A stretch of DNA of 49,385 nt from assembly GCA_934270345.1 (NCBI GenBank), contig CAKQPT010000018.1, forward strand, positions 1-49,385. The letters are read 5' to 3'. This document shows, piece by piece, positions 491 through 1,602 of the stretch (positions within the stretch are counted from its first letter, which is position 1; every line of letters begins with the position of its first letter). This DNA is from an uncultured Oribacterium sp. (GTDB lineage Bacteria > Bacillota > Clostridia > Lachnospirales > Lachnospiraceae). The position numbers and the translations under genes were made by a program. Below the pieces are notes generated by a model. That model was not told the origin of the DNA, did not search any database, and saw only the letters and a program-made list of their open reading frames with translations.

Positions 491-1602
491 TTAAAACAAT
501 TTTTCAATCACCTTACTTTTCTTTTCAAAATAAATTAAACCGAAAGATAATATTATAGTTCCTATTATTGTAATCACAAAGCACATTAAGCCGTTAGCAT
601 ATCTGTCACCCAATATAACAATATCTAAAAAAGAGTATACTATCATATGAAGCAAATATATCTTTGTGCTCAAATTGCGACACGTATGCCAATATTTACA
701 ATCTGGCACCTTACTAATCAGTATAAAACAGAATACGCTCACAGCCAACATTGCCAAAAAGCATCTCTCTAGCAAGCCTTCTGTAGCAATTTTTCCACAT
801 ATACTTATAGCTATAAAAAATAGGAACTCACTGCTTTTTCTTCTAAATAACAGCTGTTTATATTGAGCCATTAAAAAACCAACTACTATATAAAAAAATC
901 CAGTAAATATTCTTCCGTTAACAAAAACTGCACTGACTACCTTTATGAGTTGTTGTCCGAAACCATTTAATTCATAGCCATTGTTTAATATAATGGTAAA
1001 TTCATTAGCAATCAAATAAACTCCAACTGCTAAAATTGTAAGGACTTTTTGAGACAATCCCTTCTTATAAACAATAAGCCTCACAAGAACAAATGCATAA
1101 AATACTGACAGTAAGTACCACAATGGCCAACTGTTCCAATGACATCCCACAAAAATCAACCCTTTAAAAAAGGCAAATATATTACGGATTAAACTTTCGC
1201 CATTTGTAACATAATCATAAATCGTTATTGGTAAATATATTACCGTCCATATCAAATATAATTTTAGAATCTTTTTTGCGTAATTCAAAATTATTCGTTC
1301 TTGTTCTTCTTTAGGCAAAACGATAACTTTATCAAACACCAAAAAACCAGATGCTAAAAAAAAGAAAGGAACTGCAACATCTGAAATTGCTTTATACAGA
1401 TTTAGAACCGCTATTTTTTCACACCGTACTAACGGTTCTGTATGAATAGCAATAACAACAATTGCCATAATGAGCTTCATTAAATCAATAGAATTATATT
1501 GCTTGCTTGCTTGCTTGCTTGCTTGCTTGCTTGCTTGCTTGCTTGCTTGCTTGCTTGCTTGCTTGCTTGCTTGCTTGACAATTTTCTCTCTTTGTCATAC
1601 AT
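491..1602 (-). CDS. Acyltransferase-3 family membrane O-acyltransferase, frame broken by a (CAAG)19 tract
   Basis: Multi-pass membrane protein of the acyltransferase-3 family, which O-acetylates or otherwise acylates extracellular polysaccharides. The family-typical start is YNSIDLMKLIMAIVVIAIH (predicted active-site His in the IAIHTEPL segment), followed by about ten hydrophobic helices. The best start is ATG 1602 with AGGGGG seven bases upstream. From it the frame enters nineteen CAAG units (Ser-Lys-Gln-Ala repeats) and stops at 1482-1480, out of frame with the acyltransferase. A second ATG at 1598 also fails. Continuous reading is predicted after gain of one or loss of two units (ATG 1602), or loss of one or gain of two (ATG 1598). 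An ATG at 1480 exists inside the conserved N-terminus but lacks a ribosome site and would remove YNSIDL. As written the gene is in an OFF state. Confidence 0.8.
1499..1577 (-). repeat. Tetranucleotide simple sequence repeat (CAAG)19, contingency tract
   Basis: On the plus strand there are nineteen perfect GCTT units at 1501-1576, flanked by a partial unit on each side. The tract lies within the 5' end of the acyltransferase gene. Four-base units change the frame with every gain or loss, so slipped-strand mispairing would switch translation. The unit is a circular permutation of the GCAA unit used for phase-variable lipopolysaccharide O-acetylation (oafA) in Haemophilus influenzae; that parallel is from established knowledge. 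Confidence 0.97.

Follow-up and report, generated by a model that had tools for sequence, protein, structure and literature searches.

Switching of surface acyltransferase-3 (AT3) genes by tetranucleotide tracts is not new in principle, nor is it new in Firmicutes. In Haemophilus influenzae, oafA carries a GCAA tract that leaves the gene OFF with 9 or 10 units and ON with 11 (PMC6479036), and its product is an AT3 surface acyltransferase (PMC9558356). In Staphylococcus aureus, a TTTA change in icaC, the final gene of the operon for PNAG, is reversible and independent of RecA, with variation in 9 of 103 genomes (PMC4117637), and IcaC is described as an AT3-only protein (PMC9558356). Capsule phase variation has also been reported for cps1 of Akkermansia muciniphila, where long mononucleotide repeats lie at the end of the acyltransferase gene amuc_2098 (PMC13343947). 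A 2025 review states that multi-locus phase-variable genomes are apparently restricted to pathogens, possibly through database bias (PMC11868660). These descriptions follow excerpts of the cited papers.

Here we describe a (CAAG)19 tract ahead of an AT3 gene in an exopolysaccharide (EPS) cluster, found in a stretch of 49,385 nucleotides from an uncultured Oribacterium sp. (contig CAKQPT010000018.1), which we call the window. The locus resembles oafA in that both are AT3 genes with a tetranucleotide tract, GCAA being a rotation of CAAG; this comparison extends to mechanism and tract unit only, and a preliminary description of the window was right to draw it with the Haemophilus O-acetyltransferase. 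However, oafA acts on LOS in a Gram-negative bacterium rather than in a Clostridia EPS operon, and the excerpts of PMC6479036 mention no second start in another frame. With icaC the locus shares Firmicutes ancestry, the AT3 family, a tetranucleotide and an exopolysaccharide operon, but in the excerpted account the icaC tract is inside the gene of a pathogen, where slippage removes the last 47 residues, whereas the window has a long tract before the body. The cps1 system is similar as capsule phase variation in a gut commensal and differs in that, as far as the excerpts go, the demonstrated switch is an inverton, the phylum is another one and the homopolymer lies at the gene end. As far as we searched, under the topics of phase variation, tetranucleotide repeats and Lachnospiraceae, what appears to be new is the recurrence of such tracts in Lachnospiraceae, the existence of several distant tract-bearing AT3 genes and the near-fixed distance from the tract to a TTGACA hexamer. 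No paper joining the three topics was found in the open-licence literature, a scope that leaves most subscription journals outside.

A CAAG tract between two start codons and an AT3 frame

The tract occupies 1577-1502 on the minus strand. As the preliminary description had counted, it consists of nineteen perfect CAAG units, and Tandem Repeats Finder places it at 1499-1577 with 19.8 copies and a 100% match. It lies between two ATGs, ATG1602 (1602-1600) and ATG1598 (1598-1596), and the AT3 frame, which runs on the same strand from 1498 to 491 and begins YNSIDLMKLIMA. A Shine-Dalgarno-like AGGGGG (1610-1615) is located 7 nt ahead of ATG1602. With 19 units both ATGs are out of frame with the AT3 start, and they encode short peptides of 40 (ATG1602) and 34 (ATG1598) residues; none of the three forward frames of the tract contains a stop codon. 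In a scripted simulation of 14 to 25 units, ATG1602 is in frame with AT3 at n = 14, 17, 20 and 23 (n = 2 mod 3), ATG1598 is in frame at n = 15, 18, 21 and 24 (n = 0 mod 3), and at n = 16, 19, 22 and 25 the AT3 frame is reached from neither. This agrees with the earlier claims that both starts are out of frame as assembled, that a gain of one unit or loss of two restores ATG1602, and that a loss of one or gain of two restores ATG1598. The three-state logic proposed on this basis holds in the window but is not general, since a second ATG that stands ahead of the tract in another frame and can reach the gene was found at the locus L201 but at none of seven other coding loci. The tract is of the kind that defines a contingency locus, a pure tandem array whose unit is not a multiple of three and which lies before a reading frame, and in the simulation unit gain or loss would toggle an AT3 body that is otherwise intact. 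Folding of the leader RNA (z of -2.3) left this reading unchanged.

The downstream gene belongs to the AT3 family. Its body scores 67.7 bits against PF01757, for which the curated cutoff is 31, and an alignment of 11 sequences places in the first membrane helix an R/K-X10-H motif in which K8 is nearly invariant and H19 invariant; in the excerpted literature R/K-X10-H is an AT3 motif (PMC9558356). The frame comprises 335 codons and is 99% identical to a protein from a record named Coprococcus comes (P0001), which begins at MDLMKL. A more distant relative (P0003), 54% identical to the window AT3, has the repeat-free leader MYDIETELSSKQYNSIDLMK, which shares 9 of its first 12 residues with the ATG1602 frame. 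This resemblance points to ATG1602 as the probable native start, and the tract appears to have expanded from a short SSKQ-coding seed, as judged at the protein level.

We consider it probable that the tract is a slipped-strand, simple-sequence contingency locus controlling AT3. Slipped-strand mispairing at replication would alter the number of CAAG units, and, with a 4-bp unit, each change would shift the frame between the upstream starts and the AT3 body. Clones would then alternate between the full enzyme, made from ATG1602 or perhaps less efficiently from ATG1598, and a short peptide. The enzyme would acylate the polysaccharide built by the products of the preceding genes, and switching would change the cell surface.

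The state at n = 19 would be a low one under this mechanism, with some AT3 perhaps made by reinitiation. At that length, the TAA that ends the ATG1602 frame (1482-1480) overlaps an in-frame ATG (1480-1478), forming TAATG at 1478-1482. Reinitiation here could yield an AT3 that lacks its first residues only and keeps K8 and H19, and the OFF state may accordingly leak, that is, mean low. Carried to its limit, the same arrangement describes a gene that is always on, translated at n = 19 by reinitiation at ATG1480, with a tract that is innocuous and a unit number that is nearly irrelevant. The TAATG overlap, the start of the 99% identical P0001 record at MDLMKL and the retention of both motif residues in the short form are all consistent with this, but no ribosome site is visible for ATG1480, and with 18 or 20 units a full in-frame start would exist, which should keep output dependent on length. 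We regard the always-on explanation as improbable. Decay, either as a pseudogene with an expanded repeat or as an assembly miscount, would also account for an AT3 that is out of frame as assembled, and the unit count is that of the assembly. Against it, the 335-codon frame is otherwise intact and nearly identical to P0001, similar tracts occur in contigs of more than 2.5 Mb in other genomes (G036, G103, G192, G342 and G392), and a tract of 76 bp is shorter than ordinary sequencing reads. Decay is in our judgement very improbable.

A search for a second allele of the locus gave no match of that kind. Pattern matches to AT3 relatives numbered 78 in the genome_contigs collection and 15 in viral_contigs, none of which was confirmed; megablast against plasmids and phages returned no near match; and 397 genomes of the family contained three distant AT3 matches only (32-35% identity) and no second allele. 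In the genome whose citF is 99% identical to that of the window (G001), 12.1 kb of the operon found a single match of 98 bp, and (CAAG)5 was present in 0 of 17 genomes of its genus.

The EPS cluster and its other simple tracts

The AT3 gene comes last among the membrane genes of an EPS/capsule cluster on the minus strand at 491-21262. The cluster encodes CpsB/CapC, Wzz, a CpsD-like ATPase, EPS_sugtrans, glycosyltransferases, pyruvyl transferases, Wzy, a flippase and AT3, and it includes three FrhB-type genes. Beyond AT3 a nucleotidyltransferase gene (3-407, minus strand) runs off the window. The preliminary description proposed a phase-variable AT3 in an EPS operon. Comparison supports this proposal through the tract-bearing AT3 genes and GACA length differences described below and a split gene in the same cluster. 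Judged by the gene neighbourhood, the acceptor is most likely the EPS.

Composition varies along the window, with a G+C of 32-40% in the first 16 kb and 55-62% in most of the remainder. The window citF is 99% identical to that of a MAG locus (L001), and the next matches, at 78-82%, are mostly Oribacterium, which assigns the organism to Lachnospiraceae. Because the AT3 is 99% identical to a Coprococcus comes record while the host is Oribacterium-like and the G+C of the locus is low, these data suggest recent horizontal transfer of the AT3 locus.

At the thresholds of our script, the 49 kb contain four simple tracts, (CAAG)19, G10, G9 and (TA)10, each of which lies within the EPS cluster or immediately ahead of it. 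The G10 tract (11883-11892, minus strand) splits an FrhB/FdhB-type gene at 11102-12305 into two pieces, 11865-12305 and 11102-11959. These pieces align to consecutive parts of an FrhB-type protein from the locus L125 (37% and 31% identity) and join at the G10. In simulation the gene is full length at G9 and G12 and broken at G7, G8, G10, G11 and G13, making it a candidate for a second switch in the same operon as AT3. The G9 tract (14708-14716, minus strand) is close to the C-terminus of a glycosyltransferase (14637-15785), and other run lengths would alter just the last ~20 residues. For comparison, G/C runs of at least 9 occur once in 1,418,405 bp of 80 citF loci from mixed taxa and twice in the window, both times in the EPS cluster. 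The (TA)10 tract at 21478-21497 was considered as a promoter-spacer switch; it sits 95 bp upstream of a promoter-like TTGACG-17-TAAAAT, and this role is unsupported.

Tetranucleotide tracts in related genomes

We surveyed tetranucleotide tracts across the family and order, taking one place per genome. (CAAG)6 was present in 10 of 397 family genomes, and the same motif read backwards in 0 of 397; in the order the figures were 20 of 295 (one of them, G264, counted before) and 3 of 295. The excess over the backwards control in both sets indicates that CAAG tracts occur beyond chance. (GACA)6 was found in 47 of the 397 family genomes, 30 of which contributed a locus, and in 7 of 64 genomes of the G264 genus, G264 included; for this motif the backwards control is uninformative, as reversed GACA is a rotation of itself. 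(CAAT)6 was found in 0 of 329 genomes. Viral contigs contained 43 stretches with (CAAG)8. A protein search for QASK repeats gave 93 matches at E values up to 10, mostly unnamed and with several of the named ones eukaryotic, and was set aside.

The genes that follow the tracts differ between the two motifs. A frame of at least ~190 residues runs on from the tract at 13 of 31 GACA loci, and Pfam assigned ten of these frames to AT3 (2), AMP-binding (3), Methylase_S (3), SBP_bac_3 (1) or no family (1); further GACA loci had a long frame in 3 of 6 cases, including an AT3 gene (L238). By comparison, 2 of the 29 CAAG loci from other genomes enter a frame of at least 150 residues (L122 and L221), while 9 end at a contig edge right after the tract. 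With so few reaching a long frame, the CAAG tract in Lachnospiraceae is not usually a switch of a long gene, which slightly lowers the odds for the contingency reading of the window. The product of the L122 gene (4746-7892) is a hybrid sensor kinase of 984 residues with SBP_bac_3, HisKA, HATPase_c and response regulator parts; its CAAG tract is N-terminal and in frame, and the gene lies behind a c-di-GMP-I riboswitch. L221 carries an HsdS-type gene.

Type I restriction specificity (HsdS) genes are a known phase-variable kind. In the present survey, GACA or CAAG tracts lie inside HsdS-type genes at L175, L178, L189, L191, L198, L200, L221 and L234, with Methylase_S assigned by Pfam for L175, L191, L200 and L221 and by likeness only for the other four. 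Such Methylase_S genes, found in Lachnospiraceae or the order to which they belong, are like the window in bearing tetranucleotide tracts, but the tract is inside the gene and the function is another one.

Three further AT3 genes have N-terminal GACA tracts: (GACA)15 in frame at L171/L125, (GACA)29 in frame at L201 and (GACA)19 out of frame at L238. Immediately after the L125 gene, from genome G264, comes a nucleotidyltransferase gene that begins with the same 29 residues, MNTTLLIMAAGIGSRFGTGIKQLEPVDDA, as the nucleotidyltransferase gene that follows the window AT3. The L125 operon is also of EPS type, with a pyruvyl transferase, a glycosyltransferase and a flippase recognized by eye and an FrhB-type gene by alignment. 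Since the window and L125 AT3 proteins share only 26% identity over 87 residues (E of 9e-6), these are distant AT3 genes with different tetramers in the same place. No significant match was found between the AT3 proteins of L201 and L238, and the L201 gene adjoins a carB-like gene in what, by eye, is not an EPS operon. In total, twelve tract entries could be framed, all of them GACA except the window and L122: five are in frame (L171, L201, L184, L181 and L122), four are out of frame (window, L238, L174 and L193) and three (L182, L190 and L237) are copies of one locus, where the tract is followed by a separate ribosome site and ATG belonging to the gene.

Near-identical alleles with different tract lengths occur elsewhere in the family, in comparisons that cover GACA tracts only and none of CAAG. 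L172 and L186 have 6 and 13 units between flanks that are 100% identical over 500 bp on each side, and L185 and L188 have 13 and 9 units between flanks of 99.2 and 100% identity; the tracts of both pairs are outside long frames. L182 and L190 differ by 12 against 10 units at ~95% identity (66 bp before and 501 bp after the tract), and L237, which by eye is like these two, has 6. L174 and L184, a pair of AMP-ligase relatives with 83% identity over 500 residues, differ in frame as well as in length: L174 has 8 units and is out of frame, whereas L184 has 10 and is in frame.

Simple-sequence tracts of the pathogen type therefore recur in Lachnospiraceae, a family known for gut commensals, and at least four AT3 genes, including that of the window, have a tract at their start. 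If the AT3 tracts switch, clonal populations would vary in surface chemistry, with effects on phage sensitivity, immune recognition and the comparison of strains, and automatic annotation would label OFF alleles as pseudogenes or assign them the wrong start.

Several loci of the survey showed arrangements of their own. On the minus strand of L117 (~4840-5092), a leader ORF that includes (CAAG)7 ends in a TGA overlapping the ATG of an 846-residue, secreted-looking protein, a possible case of phase-variable translational coupling. At L115, L120 and L123, CAAG tracts lie in short intergenic leaders followed by hairpins that look like terminators by eye, possibly an unannotated class of leader or small RNA, and L118 and L121 have a hairpin on the CAAG side and TTGACA on the opposite side. 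Genome G264 is rich in tracts: across L125, L116 and L174 it has (GACA)15, G9 in a second AT3 gene, (AAAGAC)6 in an FrhB-type gene, (CAAG)9, (TGCTC)10 and (GACA)8, and its contig C42 has a third GACA tract.

TTGACA at a near-fixed distance from the tracts

A TTGACA hexamer recurs at a near-fixed distance from these tracts. We examined 27 loci, namely the window and 26 representatives of 41 tract loci (10 CAAG and 31 GACA) after 15 GACA loci were dropped as homologues or as lying near a contig end. In 18 of the 27, a hexamer matching TTGACA at five or more of its six positions precedes the tract by 28-34 nt, compared with 4.5% for positions drawn at random from these loci. A perfect match is present in 14, compared with 0.3%; both counts are post hoc. 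In 25 newly fetched loci, with either side of the tract allowed, the hexamer was present in 17 at 5 of 6 or better (null 6.1%) and in 15 at 6 of 6 (null 0.4%), although these loci are not fully independent, as L234 is HsdS-type, L237 is the L182/L190 locus and some others are alike. Over all loci (L085-L094, L171-L201, L206-L224 and L234-L239), 36 of 50, the window included, have TTGACA at 5 of 6 or better on one side at this distance. These 36 were reduced by removal of near-duplicates to a matrix of 35 loci, the first six columns of which are conditioned by the choice of loci for TTGACA. In this set, an ATG begins 7-13 nt after the first T of TTGACA in 26 (null 15%), a -10-like hexamer with A2 and T6 follows 17 nt after TTGACA in 26, and four or more G occur in the 8 nt before it in 23. 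The usual layout is (A)GGGG-TTGACA-ATG-17-TAtAAT-N3-tract. In HsdS genes the same spacing is found where TTGACA encodes Leu-Thr in a recurring stretch, and coding constraint may contribute to the spacing in that group.

The window fits this layout weakly, as AGGGGG-TTGAAA-A-ATG, with the ATG at +7, followed by GAAAAT, 3 nt and the tract. TTGAAA (1604-1609, minus strand) matches TTGACA at five of six positions, and GAAAAT (1581-1586, minus strand), located 17 nt further on and separated from the tract by 3 nt, is a -10-like hexamer with four of six; random positions in the window score equally well 1.3% of the time. From its sequence, the arrangement can be read in two ways, as a promoter that would start transcription within the tract or as a start codon with its ribosome site, and it fits both.

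The first of these readings leads to an alternative in which the main effect of the tract is on transcription or on the mRNA leader. An internal promoter, TTGAAA-17-GAAAAT-N3-tract, would have its start site at the tract, the unit number would tune initiation or the 5' leader, and AT3 would be made from ATG1480 or from read-through mRNA. The recurrence of TTGACA in 18 of 27 and 17 of 25 loci, together with the A2 and T6 hexamer in 26 of 35, argues for such a role, as do the 27 of 29 other CAAG loci with no frame of at least 150 residues (9 of them cut by a contig edge), some of which continue into hairpins that resemble terminators by eye. However, the hexamers of the window are imperfect, AT3 lies downstream within an operon and has, ahead of the tract, a good ribosome site and a coding leader that is conserved, and the L122 kinase gene lies behind its riboswitch, so its mRNA start is expected further upstream. 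A mainly transcriptional role in the window is in our view unlikely, and it is not mutually exclusive with the contingency reading, which we continue to prefer.

We also put forward a broader proposal, tentatively and as a possibility: the window tract could be an instance of an unreported Lachnospiraceae switch cassette, (A)GGGG-TTGACA-ATG-(17-nt spacer)-TAtAAT-N3-(tetramer)n. In it a promoter-like element would enclose both the ribosome site and the start codon, and the first tract units would fall at the expected transcription start, so that slippage might alter the initial bases of the transcript along with the initial codons. The settings of such a cassette would be before acyltransferases, AMP ligases, a sensor kinase and short intergenic leaders, and inside HsdS genes. 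If the proposal is true, Lachnospiraceae would be a commensal group rich in simple-sequence switches. The near-fixed TTGACA distance itself is an unexplained regularity that is directly testable.

Outside the EPS cluster, the window has three repeats ~570 bp apart at 22473-23799, each of which contains TTGACA-17-TATTAT. Two of the three encode small hydrophobic ORFs, MLTTELFISILSLCITCFALGYSIGSSSNNKTQK (23000-23104) and a similar one ending at 23666, and the repeats may represent a family of holin-like type I toxins.
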